Source of the DNA: a virus
IMG/VR virus record: IMGVR_UViG_3300017746_000214
Span: 1-20,679 of that record
Strand: one strand, 5' to 3'
DNA length: 20,679 nucleotides
Numbering within the stretch: the first letter of the stretch is position 1; every line of letters starts with the position of its first letter. A program made the position numbers and the translations under genes. The notes beneath the pieces are model-generated. The model had not been told where the DNA came from and did no database searches. It was given only the letters and a program-made list of their open reading frames with translations. Shown in pieces: positions 3,210 to 15,556 of the stretch.

Positions 3210-3629
3210 CTACAAATATATTCTAGTACCATTTTGAATTACCTTGAGTGGCTCTCCATACACAAAACCTCGTTTCCTACGTTCTATTTGTTTGGTTGTT
3301 GGTTTTTTAATAAACTTTTTAGTGAGATGACCTTCTCTACCTTCTCTAGGTTTATATGACCATGCGAAAAAGACTTTAATTCTATACGTATCAAAGTGGT
3401 TTGAAACCTCGCGATCACTCCAATTAATATCAAATGGTCCTAGGTCTTGTACTGCCCATAGTAGTTCCATTAATCTCTGATCATCTATCTCTCCAGTTAT
3501 TGTGCAATCAATATCTTGTGTATCTATACCACTAACTATGCCAGCAACTAGAGTTAGATCTAAACCAGTCCAATCTAAATCGTATACTGGTTCCATATAT
3601 GCATTGAATTCTTCGTCGTTTAGTCTCAT
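3210..3629 (-). CDS. hypothetical small tail-module protein
   Basis: A 139-residue protein I do not recognise. It is acidic in its first half (MRLNDEEFNAYMEPVYDLDW) and strongly basic in its last 50 residues (KKFIKKPTTKQIERRKRGF). No signal peptide or membrane segment is visible. It sits between the putative tail hub, whose stop is 1 bp upstream, and the tape measure gene, which starts 4 bp downstream, so it is probably co-translated with them. The place between hub and tape measure suggests a tail-tip or tape-measure-associated role, but the sequence itself does not show it. Confidence 0.7.
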   Translation of the reverse strand: MRLNDEEFNAYMEPVYDLDWTGLDLTLVAGIVSGIDTQDIDCTITGEIDDQRLMELLWAVQDLGPFDINWSDREVSNHFDTYRIKVFFAWSYKPREGREGHLTKKFIKKPTTKQIERRKRGFVYGEPLKVIQNGTRIYL

Positions 3630-11324: not shown

Positions 11325-11557
11325 AACGTTCTATCTATTAATTCTGCTGCGACAGCGGAAAAGGCTGCGTATGCGACTCCTATATAACCATATATAATTA
11401 ACTGAGGTCCTATCGTTAACCAAAACGTAAAACATAGTGTGCAACTAAATGGTTTGTCTGGTAGACCTAGTCGTTTAACTATCCACTGATATGCAGGAAA
11501 TTCCTGTATCATTGCGGCCATACTTGCTATTCCTAATAATTTAATCAATAATTCCAT
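11312..11557 (-). CDS. small membrane protein with CxxC motif
   Basis: An 81-residue protein with two likely membrane-spanning stretches: an N-terminal hydrophobic helix (LLIKLLGIASMAAMI) and a longer hydrophobic region at about 45-70 (WLTIGPQLIIYGYIGVAYAA). Between them is a short loop with KPFSCTLCFTFW, a CxxC pair at the membrane boundary. A holin or a phage-encoded inner membrane protein is possible; the CxxC speaks against a plain holin. It overlaps the sigma-like gene upstream by 17 bp and the next small gene by 13 bp, so expression is probably coupled to both. Confidence 0.65.
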   Translation of the reverse strand: MELLIKLLGIASMAAMIQEFPAYQWIVKRLGLPDKPFSCTLCFTFWLTIGPQLIIYGYIGVAYAAFSAVAAELIDRTLWNN

Positions 11558-12164
11558 TGTCTTTTAGTTTTTGTATTATGTGTTCTCTTGCTTCATCTAT
11601 AGCTTCTGATATACTGGTTCTTGGTATTCTAGTTTGTCTACTCAATTCTGAATAATTAGGTTGTTTAACCCACATTTTAAATAAAGTAGAAATATACCAA
11701 AGATGTAGACCTTCACCTTCCATATCTTCTAATATACCATTGATTGCATCTATTTTTAGATCCTTTTCCCAATCATAATCAGTATCTTCAAAAGCTTCAT
11801 CTTGTAATCTGACTCTCAACTTTTTTTTATCAGAGTAGTTTTGAAACTTTGATTGATCATGATCAGTATCAATATCATCTTTAGATAGGTTACTATCATT
11901 AAATAGAAATGGATCGTATGGAAAGATTTTACTATTCTGTCTATACAATTTATGATATGGTGATGTTGAACTGTGGAAGTTACGCCAAATCATACCAGAC
12001 ATAAACTTCATTGCTTCTCCTTTTTTAATTAGTTCATCTCTTCTTGGGTGGATCATAAACTGTTCCATTACATAATGTGCAATTTCTTCATAGTCTCTAT
12101 GCTGAGTTATTTTCTCAGTCATTTTAACTATGTCTTTGTAATGGTTAGTAAAGAATCTGTCCAT
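11541..12164 (-). CDS. putative RNA polymerase sigma factor-like protein
   Basis: A 207-residue protein arranged like a small sigma-70 family member. Residues about 5-75 are helical and could correspond to region 2, including FMSGMIWRNFHSSTSPYHKLY. A disordered, Asp/Ser-rich linker at about 85-130 follows. The C-terminal NYSELSRQTRIPRTSISEAIDEAREHI (170-196) is a convincing helix-turn-helix in the place of region 4. It would redirect host RNA polymerase to phage promoters. Its start abuts the stop of the upstream gene (TAAATG), and three small genes and the terminases follow, consistent with a middle/late switch. Other helix-turn-helix regulators, such as a late-gene activator, are possible. 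Confidence 0.55.
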   Translation of the reverse strand: MDRFFTNHYKDIVKMTEKITQHRDYEEIAHYVMEQFMIHPRRDELIKKGEAMKFMSGMIWRNFHSSTSPYHKLYRQNSKIFPYDPFLFNDSNLSKDDIDTDHDQSKFQNYSDKKKLRVRLQDEAFEDTDYDWEKDLKIDAINGILEDMEGEGLHLWYISTLFKMWVKQPNYSELSRQTRIPRTSISEAIDEAREHIIQKLKDNGIID

Positions 12165-12707: not shown

Positions 12708-13049
12708 TTAAAATACTGGAGACGTACCTGATGATTCTGGTGCACGTTTAGATGGTTCTTTATATTTATATGTAATAGAATAATTGGTTTTACTACCAGC
12801 GTCCTTGTATATCTCTATATGACCTTTTTTATGTAACTGTTCTAAATTATATTTAATATCCTTTTCATGTGTATGTAATATCTGTGATATTTGTCCAGTT
12901 AAAGCTTCACATGGTTTAGTACCATTAGATGTAAATTTCTTTATTAAAGGAAGCAATATCTTTTGAAGACCATTAATTGATCTATCTGTCCATATAGAAT
13001 TTGGTATATTAAAGTCTAGGTTGTCGTAATTTTTATTGTGTATCTTCAT
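12708..13049 (-). CDS. winged-helix DNA-binding protein
   Basis: A 113-residue protein with a probable winged helix-turn-helix domain: LQKILLPLIKKFTSNG (helix 1), CEALTGQISQILHTHEKDIKYNLEQLHKKGHIEIYKD (about residues 47-84, helix-turn-helix plus wing). Such domains occur in phage replisome organisers, in MarR-like regulators and in plasmid initiators. The last 25 residues are disordered-looking. The translation start lies in an 18-bp sequence (minus strand AAAACAAAATATTATGAA) that is identical at the start of the initiator-like gene upstream, so the two may be translated alike. It follows the 52-residue helix-turn-helix gene by 19 bp. Initiator accessory or repressor are both possible. Confidence 0.6.
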   Translation of the reverse strand: MKIHNKNYDNLDFNIPNSIWTDRSINGLQKILLPLIKKFTSNGTKPCEALTGQISQILHTHEKDIKYNLEQLHKKGHIEIYKDAGSKTNYSITYKYKEPSKRAPESSGTSPVF

Positions 13050-13068: not shown

Positions 13069-13227
13069 TTAGTATGCGTAAACTATTCTTTTAACTGTAG
13101 TTGCTGATCTATTGGTAGCTTCAGCAATTTGCTTTAAACTATATCCATCTAGACGTAGTTTTAAAATAGTTTGTTTTTCTTTACTTGTTAATCTGGTTCT
13201 ACCTTTTGGTAATTCATTGATTTTCAT
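13069..13227 (-). CDS. 52-residue helix-turn-helix regulator
   Basis: A short gene starting MKINELPKGRTRLTSKEKQ and ending in KRIVYAY before TAA at 13069-13071. The LKLRLDGYSLKQIAEATN stretch followed by RSATTVKRI is an almost textbook helix-turn-helix of the resolvase/transposase-like or homeodomain-like kind (helix 2 KQIAEAT, helix 3 SATTVKRI). It would bind DNA as a small repressor or activator. The leader is A-rich (TAAAACAA 6 bp before the ATG) without a Shine-Dalgarno sequence, as in its neighbours. A 15-bp motif lies 46 bp upstream of the ATG at exactly the same spacing as for the initiator-like gene, so both may be controlled together, possibly by this protein. Confidence 0.75.
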   Translation of the reverse strand: MKINELPKGRTRLTSKEKQTILKLRLDGYSLKQIAEATNRSATTVKRIVYAY

Positions 13228-13258: not shown

Positions 13259-13288
13259 TTATATAGGAAATGTTCCCTTTGTTTCATA
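13259..13288 (-). promoter_or_regulatory. conserved upstream motif, helix-turn-helix gene
   Basis: The second copy of TATGAAACAAAGGGA (13274-13288) with CTATATAA (13259-13266), overlapping the last bases of the initiator-like gene at its distal edge region. It has exactly 46 bp to the ATG of the 52-residue helix-turn-helix gene. The flanking sequence differs from the other copy, so the shared bases look conserved for function. Confidence 0.6.
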
Positions 13289-13295
13289 TAGACCT

Positions 13296-13898
13296 TTAAA
13301 TATCAATACTATTCAAGAAATGTTCTAGTTCTCGTTTAGTTATGGTTTTGTTGGGTTTGGATGGAGGTGATCTAAAATCACCGTCATCCTCAGATATAAT
13401 AGATTTATTATTATCTATTATATGTATAGTATCTATATGTTGGTCTTGGAGACCAGTATTCTTGTCCTGGAGACCAGTAGTCTTGTCCTCAAGACCAGTA
13501 CTCTTGTCCTGGAGACCACTAGTCTTGTCCTGGAGACCAGTTTTCTTTATTCTTCTAGGTATAGATAGTGGTTGTTTATTTTCTAATCTACGCATCAAAG
13601 AACCAAAATCTAAATCGTAGTTTGTGGTGTCTTTAATTTGTATCAGGATATGTTCATACGTTAATGAGTCAAAGATGTCTCTAACTGCACTGTAACTACA
13701 TCCAGACAACTCTTGATATTTCTCTCTAGTCCAAATAACTTTATCATTCATTGCATAGTCAGAACCAACCATGATATTTAGAATAATTTTTTTAGATGTG
13801 TGTCCTTTTAATGCTGGACTTTTAGTAATAAAATCGAATGAGTAGTGGAATTTGCCTTTGTTATTATCCAGATATTTCTGTAATGTTTTACTTTTCAT
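13296..13898 (-). CDS. winged-helix replication initiator-like protein with internal repeats
   Basis: A 200-residue protein likely to act as replisome organiser. Residues about 34-90 form a winged helix: KKIILNIM, then WTREKYQELSGCSYSAVRDIFDSLTYEHILIQI. Residues 119-153 are five tandem seven-residue repeats of the type TGLQDK, followed by an acidic stretch and a C-terminal helix (TITKRELEHFLNSI), which may contact a helicase or loader. The repeat DNA is a candidate origin (see separate entry), giving the lambda O arrangement of an initiator gene with its own origin inside. No helicase or polymerase is encoded nearby, so host enzymes would be recruited. A regulatory motif lies upstream. A transcription regulator with a repeat linker is the alternative. 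Confidence 0.65.
   Translation of the reverse strand: MKSKTLQKYLDNNKGKFHYSFDFITKSPALKGHTSKKIILNIMVGSDYAMNDKVIWTREKYQELSGCSYSAVRDIFDSLTYEHILIQIKDTTNYDLDFGSLMRRLENKQPLSIPRRIKKTGLQDKTSGLQDKSTGLEDKTTGLQDKNTGLQDQHIDTIHIIDNNKSIISEDDGDFRSPPSKPNKTITKRELEHFLNSIDI
13394..13439. other. AT-rich inverted repeat beside iterons (possible DNA unwinding element)
   Basis: Directly next to the 21-bp repeats lies a very AT-rich stretch containing a perfect 11-bp inverted repeat, ATATAATAGAT at 13394-13404 and ATCTATTATAT at 13413-13423 with an 8-bp spacer. Iterons flanked by an easily melted AT-rich segment inside an initiator gene is the known plan of the lambda origin, so this may be the unwinding element. 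The sequence features are seen; the origin function is inferred. Confidence 0.5.
13440..13544. repeat. five tandem 21-bp repeats (iteron candidates)
   Basis: Five back-to-back copies of a 21-bp unit (plus strand cttgtcctggagaccagta with 2 more bases) fill this stretch exactly: 13440-13460, 13461-13481, 13482-13502, 13503-13523 and 13524-13544. Units are in codon register with the initiator-like gene. Each has the near-palindromic core CTGG-AGA-CCAG or a variant; the first has a perfect TGGTCT-TGG-AGACCA inverted repeat. The core uses codons CTC, CAG, GAC and AAG, which are uncommon in this AT-rich genome, suggesting selection on the DNA sequence and not only on the peptide. Confidence 0.9.
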
Positions 13899-13928
13899 AA
13901 TATTTTGTTTTAATGGTCTTTATGTTCT

Positions 13929-13959
13929 TTATATAGTTTATATATCCCTTTGTTTCATA
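13929..13959 (-). promoter_or_regulatory. conserved upstream motif, initiator-like gene
   Basis: On the minus strand TATGAAACAAAGGGA (13945-13959) is followed by CTATATAA (13929-13936). The 15-bp part and the CTATATAA box recur upstream of the 52-residue helix-turn-helix gene, with the 15-bp part at the identical 46-bp distance from the ATG. The CTATATAA box could be a -10-like element and the 15-bp part a -35-like or operator element. It lies just downstream of an intrinsic terminator, as expected for a new transcription unit. Confidence 0.6.
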
Positions 13960-13973
13960 AAAAAAGTCATGTA

Positions 13974-14008
13974 TAAAAAAAGAGACCTAGAAGAATCTAG
14001 ATCTCTTT
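13974..14008 (-). terminator. intrinsic terminator after tail fibre gene
   Basis: On the minus strand a stem with 13-base arms (AAAGAGATCTAGA at 13996-14008 and TCTAGGTCTCTTT at 13979-13991, one U-G pair) with a 4-base loop runs into an uninterrupted T tract. It lies downstream of the tail fibre region and just upstream of the promoter-like motif of the initiator gene, so it separates the virion block from the replication block. Confidence 0.85.
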
Positions 14009-14161
14009 AACAAAATATATAAAACACCTGGAATTATGATAACCAGGAAATAATAACAAACAACTAAAAAGTAAAAAAGAAGGTGTGGCGCACCGTACGT
14101 AAAAAAGAAATAGTTTGTTTGTTACTAATTATATATCTTTTTTTATTTTTGTTTCAATTTA

Positions 14162-14398
14162 TTATGAAATAACTAAAGCTCCTGCATTTGACACAGTTAA
14201 TGTGTATGCTGTTCCGTCTGGAGATAGCATTGTAATACCATTACCACCAGTTCCACCATCAGGTGCAACTACATACAATGCTCTAACGTGTGTTGTATCT
14301 GCATTTATACTTGTAACTTGTCTTCCCATTGCAACTGCACCTGCTTGACCAGCTGATGTTTGTTGACCGAAAGCAACTGAACCATCTCCTGATGCTAC
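14162..14398 (-). pseudogene. in-frame 3' continuation of tail fibre beyond the stop
   Basis: After the internal TAA the same frame stays open for 78 codons to TAA at 14162-14164. It reads VASGDGSVAFGQQTSAGQ, further AVAMGRQ-type repeats, then ALYVVAPDGGTGGNGITMLS and ends TVSNAGALVIS. This is clearly the rest of the beta-roll plus the fibre tip. There is no ATG at the beginning that would make it an independent gene of sensible length. It is either a remnant after a nonsense change (CAA to TAA would do), a sequencing error in the stop, or a read-through extension. Confidence 0.8.
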
Positions 14399-15556
14399 TT
14401 AAGTTCTACCAAAACTAATAGCATATGAGTTAGTAGCTTCTGCATATTGTCCAAAGGCAGCAGCATGTGTACTTGATGCAACTGCATCCTGCCCATATGC
14501 CATTGCTCCTGTGCCTCCTGATGCACTTGCACCGTTACCAATTGCGATTGAATTACTTGAAGTTGCACTTCCTGTAGCTCCTGTTACAGCACTCTGTACT
14601 GAATTAGAACCAGAACCAGCAGTCATACCAGCGGCTCCTCCACCACCTACTGCGGTAGAATCAATTTGTAAATCACCAGTTGCAGTAATGTTTAAACGTC
14701 TGTCTGTACCACCTGCATCTGACATAATAATACCACCAGCTGTTGGTGTTGAGTCTGTTTGTAGTTCTACAGCTTTCATTGAAACTGTACTTGCAATATT
14801 ACCAGTTACATCTTTACCTAAAGCGATAGCGTCTGTAGCTGTTGCTTGTGCTAATTTTCCAATTGCTATTGCACCTGCTGCCAAAGCGTCAGCTTCTTTA
14901 CCAACTGCTATAGCATCTGTTTGAGTTGCAGATGAACCATATCCACCTACTACTGTAGCTCCTTCAGCACTAGCTGTACTAAATGCTCCGAATACTGCAC
15001 TTGAAAATGCTGATGCTGTTGAACTAGCACCTACTACTACAGCTCTACTACCTGATGCATTAGAACTATCACCAATTGCAGTTGATCTTGATCCTGTTGC
15101 TTGTGCTCCATTACCTATAGCTACATCTTTTTCATTTGTAGCATCAGTATTAAAACCAATTGCAACGTTACTTCTAGCAAAAGCGTCATCTCCACCTGCA
15201 TTAGCTGTATTACCAATTGCAATGTTATTACCACTTGTTGCAGTTGCACCATCACCTAAAGCAATAGTATCTGCTGCTGAAGCGTTTGCTGCTACAGTAG
15301 TTAAAGTAGAAGCTGATTGCATAGAATCAGTTCCAGTACCACTAACTAAACCACCTGATGCAATACCTGTTACGGTTGCTGAAGTAAAGTCTGCATTACC
15401 TGTAAATTTAATTGTTGTTGTTGATGCTTCTAGCGGTAGTTGGTTTCCTACACCGTCAGTGATCACTCTGTTTGTTCCGTTGATTGCTGCATTATCGAGA
15501 GTCTTTAAAAGTCCTTCGTATGATGCATTAATCGCTTGTCCTGTTAATGTACTCAT
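14399..15556 (-). CDS. tail fibre with YadA-like head (Hep_Hag) repeats, truncated by TAA
   Basis: A 385-residue fibre or adhesin that probably binds the host surface. The N-terminus (MSTLTGQAINASYEGLLKTL, then TDGVGNQLPLE) is a familiar virion-attachment start in Bacteroidota phage fibres. Residues about 95-245 and 326-385 consist of roughly 14-residue repeats such as NNIAIGNTANAGG and DAIAVGKEADALAAG, the left-handed beta-roll repeats of YadA/Hep_Hag adhesins; a non-repeat section with a Gly-rich hinge lies between. The frame stops at TAA (14399-14401) in the middle of a repeat, and the next 78 codons in the same frame continue the repeats and a C-terminal tip. It lies 33 bp after the NGSW-repeat gene and is probably co-expressed with it. 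Confidence 0.8.
   Translation of the reverse strand: MSTLTGQAINASYEGLLKTLDNAAINGTNRVITDGVGNQLPLEASTTTIKFTGNADFTSATVTGIASGGLVSGTGTDSMQSASTLTTVAANASAADTIALGDGATATSGNNIAIGNTANAGGDDAFARSNVAIGFNTDATNEKDVAIGNGAQATGSRSTAIGDSSNASGSRAVVVGASSTASAFSSAVFGAFSTASAEGATVVGGYGSSATQTDAIAVGKEADALAAGAIAIGKLAQATATDAIALGKDVTGNIASTVSMKAVELQTDSTPTAGGIIMSDAGGTDRRLNITATGDLQIDSTAVGGGGAAGMTAGSGSNSVQSAVTGATGSATSSNSIAIGNGASASGGTGAMAYGQDAVASSTHAAAFGQYAEATNSYAISFGRT

Follow-up and report, generated by a model that had tools for sequence, protein, structure and literature searches.

Little is known about how phages of marine Bacteroidota seize the host polymerase, and the promoters of these hosts are unlike those of E. coli. 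The housekeeping promoter of Bacteroidota has a TTTG element about 19 nt before TAnnTTTG. Among ECF promoters, those of the SigW type have GAAAC or GGAAC as the -35 element and CGTA or CGTC as the -10 element, separated from the -35 element by a spacer of ~16 nt, as in the phage element described here. For SigW of Bacillus subtilis, part of one report gives the -35 element as GAAACCT with the core GAAAC (PMC6713349). A literature search covering mainly abstracts found no paper on the element of the form TGAAACA-N16/17-TATAAT.

The window, which is the whole stretch of 20,679 nucleotides of viral DNA that was analyzed, carries TATGAAACAAAGGGA at 13945-13959 and 13274-13288, both on the minus strand. 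As the preliminary description had reported, the two copies are exact, with an ATG 46 bp away in each case (at 13898 and 13227). A scan of the whole window found no further site with up to three mismatches. Both copies are also followed by CTATATAA, as had been claimed, but here the spacing differs between the two, with gaps of 8 and 7 bp. The repeated 15-mer by itself is unremarkable and expected in such a window, in which 15 distinct 15-mers are repeated (overlapping ones counted), against a mean of 2.5 and a maximum of 7 in 40 sequences simulated with an order-2 Markov background. The unusual part of the repeat is the shared offset to the ATG. When 100-bp upstream regions were compared in 325 pairs, the TATGAAACAAAGGGA pair gave the longest same-offset identical run, at 15 bp, and in 322 pairs such runs reached at most 8 bp. 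Two further pairs stand out, one through the AAAACAAAATATTATG start region (13 bp) and one through an 11-bp run within a second promoter-like element. Both copies open a frame, ATG AAA CAA AGG GA, that is in phase with the gene but is then stopped. Reading this as an upstream ORF was rejected because conservation does not require that ATG.

Relatives were gathered by TerL, by the 113-aa protein listed below and by a MAG scan. When the 13-bp core of the 15-mer was used as the search motif in the relatives (up to two mismatches), no syntenic copies were returned because conservation is limited to two boxes: upstream of the corresponding early genes, GAAACA and TATAA are kept 16 or 17 bp apart, and what is conserved is TGAAACA-N16/17-TATAAT rather than the whole 15-mer. 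Judged from sequence comparison, the 15-mer almost certainly supplies the -35 element of a phage promoter of this form. The window holds a third copy of the element, which was absent from the preliminary description. The three putative promoters (P0, P1 and P2) and the associated features are as follows.

14129..14155, minus strand: P0, putative promoter GAAACA-N16-TATAA(T), third copy of the element, directly after the last tail-gene ORF
13975..14125, minus strand: predicted small noncoding RNA from P0, with a 5' stem and an intrinsic terminator stem (14008-13979)
13939..13968, minus strand: extra boxes of P1, GACTTTTTT (13968-13959 side) and GATATATA (13946-13939)
13929..13956, minus strand: P1, putative promoter GAAACA-N17-TATAA, with copy 1 of the 15-mer as its -35 part, preceding the gene at 13296-13898
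13296..13898, minus strand: g200, 200 aa, first early gene and probable replication initiator
13443..13541, minus strand: iterons, 4.7 copies of a 21-bp direct repeat within g200
13259..13285, minus strand: P2, putative promoter GAAACA-N16-TATAA(T), with copy 2 of the 15-mer as its -35 part, preceding hth52
13069..13227, minus strand: hth52, 52-aa helix-turn-helix protein (HTH_38, 4.2e-9), sigma region 4-like
12708..13049, minus strand: 113-aa DnaD/O-like protein, with weak matches (phrog_186, 5.7e-5)
11541..12164, minus strand: g207, sigma-like protein, candidate reader of P0, P1 and P2
9347..9372, minus strand: second promoter-like element, TTCA-N14-TATATTTG, after terL
3214..3239, minus strand: second promoter-like element, ATTCA-N14-TATATTT, before a 591-aa tape-measure-like gene

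P1 follows the strong intrinsic terminator at 14008-13979, and a P2-type element also precedes the hth52 homologs in L003, L006 and L101. The extra conserved boxes of P1, GACTTTTTT and GATATATA, may be an operator, or else a promoter that overlaps P1 and is read by the host; GACTTTT-N0-30-GATATATA occurs six times forward and never in reverse in the 39 near contigs defined below, and not at all in 56 others. Calling the downstream genes replication genes, as the preliminary description did, is reasonable in view of the 21-bp iterons in g200 (ATG at 13898) and the weak DnaD/O-like matches of the 113-aa protein. g200 has no family match and, as a query, found no relatives. Such repeats were present in 3 of 29 regions scanned, those of the window, L006 (22-bp repeats at 650-753, in the syntenic region) and L142; since a period of 22 bp is not divisible by 3, selection is probably on the DNA. 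Iterons within the first early gene are likened to lambda-O-type origins. Separately, the frame of the YadA-like tail gene at 14162-15556 is broken by one stop codon (14399-14401) and goes on past the stop as the ORF at 14162-14329.

For counting sites, near-identical contigs were merged, which reduced 144 loci to 95, and the 39 of these that carry a near g207-type protein are referred to as near contigs. Left out of the counts were the duplicates L001, L002, L070 and L071 together with L060-L063 and L065-L069, and loci from L157 onward stand outside the 39- and 56-contig counts. In the dereplicated near contigs, TGAAACA-N16/17-TATAAT occurs at 32 forward and 4 reverse sites; a forward site is present in 17 of the 39, with the window contributing three of the 32, and many of the 22 contigs with no forward site are short fragments. 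Two of the forward sites fall within genes, and the intergenic count was 25 against 0.17 expected, with a maximum of 2 in 300 simulations. No site was found in the 56 other contigs (8 far-sigma and 48 with no sigma hit), and shared descent alone would equally account for the lack of sites in the far clade. The spacing is similarly constrained. In the intergenic DNA of 11 contigs, GAAACA precedes 15 of 78 N16/17-TATAA sites, with a gap of 16 in 11 and of 17 in 4; there was none at 10-15 or 18-21, and no gap except 16 or 17 has more than one GAAACA-TATAA site. Together, 23 gap-16 sites give the consensus tTGAAACAa-N-TATAAt, in which TATAATAACTA is common. The sites follow terminators or come directly after stop codons, and lie upstream of ATGs, and in the MAG contigs C5 and C8 the element is also found on the opposite strand, ahead of opposite-strand genes. 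It should be noted that L064, the sole relative among 10 contigs from an IMG/VR scan with GAAACAAAGGG-N6-12-TATATAA, first came from this motif scan and thus carries a circularity, and that the TerL search recovered it independently; the other nine were excluded from later counts. The idea of a phage-specific promoter is supported by the motif search in related phages that had been proposed as its check: two boxes are conserved in spacing, strand and position, the 15-mer as such not being conserved. The motif had also been said not to match the usual Bacteroidota promoter, and we agree: TTTG-N17-22-TAnnTTTG was found at 0 intergenic sites against 0.41 expected and not at all in the window. TTGACA-N8-25-TATAA was likewise absent from the intergenic set of 11 contigs.

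The interval between P0 and P1 is a gene-free stretch of ~150 nt at the border of late and early genes, from which a transcript is predicted that begins with a stem and stops at the terminator. With hand-chosen positions, 13 of 14 contigs showed the order P0-terminator-P1 (the window, L003, L015, L017, L018, L038, L064, L072, L107, L108, L113, L117 and L148), three of which, L017, L038 and L064, have a relaxed P0 with GAAACT or with TATAT as the -10 element; in L016 the script found no terminator in the P0 survey. The layout of this region is conserved across contigs and its sequence is not. In the window, the folding of the predicted RNA has a z of -3.26, and none of 300 shuffles was equally stable. 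The RNA bodies are above the shuffle-mean stability in 12 of 13 contigs, with p ≤0.01 in only 4 of the 13 and a z of 0.11 in L072, so that structure beyond the terminator appears to be supported unevenly, in some contigs and not in others. Rfam gave no match at the gathering score (best E 0.13, below gathering). In two contigs of the MAG G001 (C5:428-501 and C8:21531-21604; L169 and L172), a P0-type promoter is reversed and stands back-to-back with P1; it faces the tail genes, and the small RNA would therefore be antisense to the layout of the window.

A blind two-box search of near intergenic DNA placed ATTCA-N14-TATATTT above the first element (22 versus 17 contigs). This second element, seen in 26 of the 39 near contigs, has 33 forward and 2 reverse sites, 30 of them at a gap of exactly 14, and lies nearly always 6-10 nt upstream of the ATG of the post-terL or tape-measure gene. 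It is probably a late promoter class, possibly one whose transcripts have hardly any leader, but may instead be an RNA element. Some members of the far-sigma clade also have TATATTT, without the other box, upstream of the post-terL gene, and a search for a distinct promoter in that clade found none (at most 3 of 8 genomes, with simulated maxima of 2-3).

A candidate for reading the first element is g207, which is conserved upstream of TerS/TerL in the relatives. PHROG sigma families match 9 of 18 members of the g207 family (best 2.7e-8) and Pfam Sigma70_r4 matches 5 of 18; the g207 of the window itself has no sigma match in Pfam or PHROGs and no match in the phage collection. Its AlphaFold model (mean pLDDT 80, pTM 0.39) has two confident helical parts. 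In structural comparisons the fold matched complete ECF sigma factors as well as region 4 by itself; the best Foldseek hit had an E of only 0.043, and VIA-align ranked sigma factors first. The model aligns to SigL with Z 10.6 over 150 residues at an rmsd of 16.6, the domain orientation being different, and to sigmaE region 4 on -35 DNA with Z 9.7 at 2.1 Å over 68 residues. The -35 box of the element also fits recognition by an ECF sigma, given the GAAAC core of the SigW box. Because g207 is conserved and has a predicted sigma-like fold, we infer that it is the likeliest reader of TGAAACA-N16/17-TATAAT promoters, with confidence slightly on the positive side.

The element also occurs in unrelated phages. 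An IMG/VR scan with TGAAACA-N16/17-TATAATAACTA gave 58 stretches, some on a shared contig, of which 7 encode a g207-type protein and 5 more have other homologs of window proteins; in the remaining 46, no homolog of a window protein was found within the fetched stretch. None of 20 of these element-bearing records tested matched the g207 family. A PHROG sigma was found in 12 of the 20 (9 with E below 1e-17) and in 5 of 27 control records, which were not length-matched (best E 4.6e-9). GAAACA-N16/17-TATAAT has 59 sites in the 20 records, of which at least 20 are those by which the records were selected; the reversed pattern has 4. In the jumbo phage LR756500, whose sigma is related to that of the other phage group, there are 13 sites against 4 in the control, and 12 of the 13 share a strand. 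Several of these 12 same-strand GAAACA-N16/17-TATAA sites in the 462-kb uncultured phage record (LR756500.1) end in CATATAA. Phages with more distant sigmas had no excess of sites over the control; these were Lak-B2 (5 versus 7) and Lak-A2 (4 versus 6), the crAss genomes cr1_1 (1 versus 2), cr53_1 (0 versus 0) and cr10_1 (0 versus 3), and the Rhizobium phage P10VF (1 versus 0). Since the element is present in records without g207, g207 cannot be the sole reader. The promoter type thus extends beyond g207, and would be read either by several phage sigmas or by a factor of the host. The earlier suggestion that a sigma-like protein reads the motif is plausible: the ECF-size sigma look of g207 speaks in favor, and the presence of the element in unrelated phages without g207 speaks against.

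The host is probably a member of Bacteroidota. Three relatives sit in a MAG titled uncultured Flavobacteriaceae, and one short relative is in an Aliivibrio MAG, where it is probably misbinned. A Shine-Dalgarno-like upstream sequence is present in 1 of 26 window genes, and Shine-Dalgarno sites are described as absent in Bacteroidetes in part of one report (PMC6847099). The three relatives in the Flavobacteriaceae MAG (C5, C7 and C8 of G001; L169-L174) are three different phages of this group of ~24 kb each. Judging by the order of their genes, the window is probably a circularly permuted and nearly complete genome without the extra genes that these phages carry between the protease-like and 200-aa capsid-region genes.

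As a whole, we consider it somewhat more probable than not that the element is a phage promoter class which drives the early operon, hth52 and the small RNA and is read with g207. P1 would start transcription of the early/regulatory operon, P2 that of hth52 and the genes after it, and P0 that of a small terminated RNA, with RNA polymerase reading the element most likely with the ECF-size sigma-like protein g207 of the phage. Because g207 would be made from the operon driven by these promoters, the circuit would have positive feedback. The g207 gene lies downstream of P0, P1 and P2 and would depend on P1/P2, as no separate promoter is seen for it; something else must therefore start the circuit, and this may be some host-read or read-through transcription. 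A different reading, which is possible and in our judgment rather doubtful, is that the element is a promoter read by an ECF or alternative sigma of the Bacteroidota host and active at infection, with g207 serving the late ATTCA-N14-TATATTT class. It would suit the need of early genes for transcription before phage proteins exist, the sharing of the element by unrelated phages and the 8 of 20 such records, many of them fragments, that have no PHROG sigma match; it is weakened by 41 host-family genomes in which TGAAACA-N16/17-TATAAT is not enriched (45 sites versus 41 of the reversed pattern, a comparison that detects a common promoter rather than one with few sites per genome) and by the MAG with three relatives, which has one match outside its phage contigs. 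The link of g207 to late genes is further loosened by the TATATTT box, which also occurs beside part of the far sigma clade.

The fixed box spacing of 16/17, as for -35 and -10 elements, makes it very unlikely that hth52 or some other regulator of the phage uses the element as an operator, with the TATA boxes coming from an overlapping promoter. Further conserved boxes in P1, the DNA-binding type of hth52 and the position of P2 before its homologs would be in keeping with an operator, but hth52 homologs were found only in L003/L070, L006 and L101, against forward sites in 17 of 39 near contigs. The preliminary description had offered an operator for this 52-residue protein, which is left unsupported because no HTH homolog is detectable in most element-bearing genomes and many other, unrelated genes are preceded by the element. 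Almost no weight can be given to a coincidence or a recently duplicated leader: repeated 15-mers are expected in the window (mean 2.5) and both copies open the ATG AAA CAA AGG frame, yet the two-box element is kept in relatives with differing spacers, and the intergenic excess contradicts such an origin.

Returning to the phage promoter, we suggest tentatively, and short of real conviction, that it is a code common to several unrelated, marine and probably Bacteroidota phage lineages, each with its own ECF-like sigma that avoids the host promoter type, and that the group of the window also has a new small RNA and late genes on the second class. A promoter pair, a candidate sigma and a candidate small RNA in a genome of ~20 kb make a small system for promoter switching, and the element is a sequence signature for locating transcription units in uncultured phages.

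Compared with known systems, the element shares the probable host group with the Bacteroidota housekeeping promoter but, as given above, has no intergenic matches to it. The sigma-70-type promoter TTGACA-N17-TATAAT has the same -10 element, TATAAT, and a TTGAAA/ATGAAA hexamer overlaps the phage -35 box at a spacing of 18; it differs in that the conserved phage -35 element is GAAACA. SigW/ECF promoters have a -35 element, GAAAC, like the GAAACA box. The phage -10 element is TATAA(T) rather than that of the SigW type, and the element is therefore not filed as a SigW promoter. The 'sigma-W factor' annotations of crAss-like phages and those of Lak phages are likewise phage-encoded ECF-size sigmas of Bacteroidota phages; these sigmas are relatives of those in the other element-bearing phages. 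Differences are that g207 itself has no match in the phage collection and that the crAss and Lak genomes tested have no element excess.
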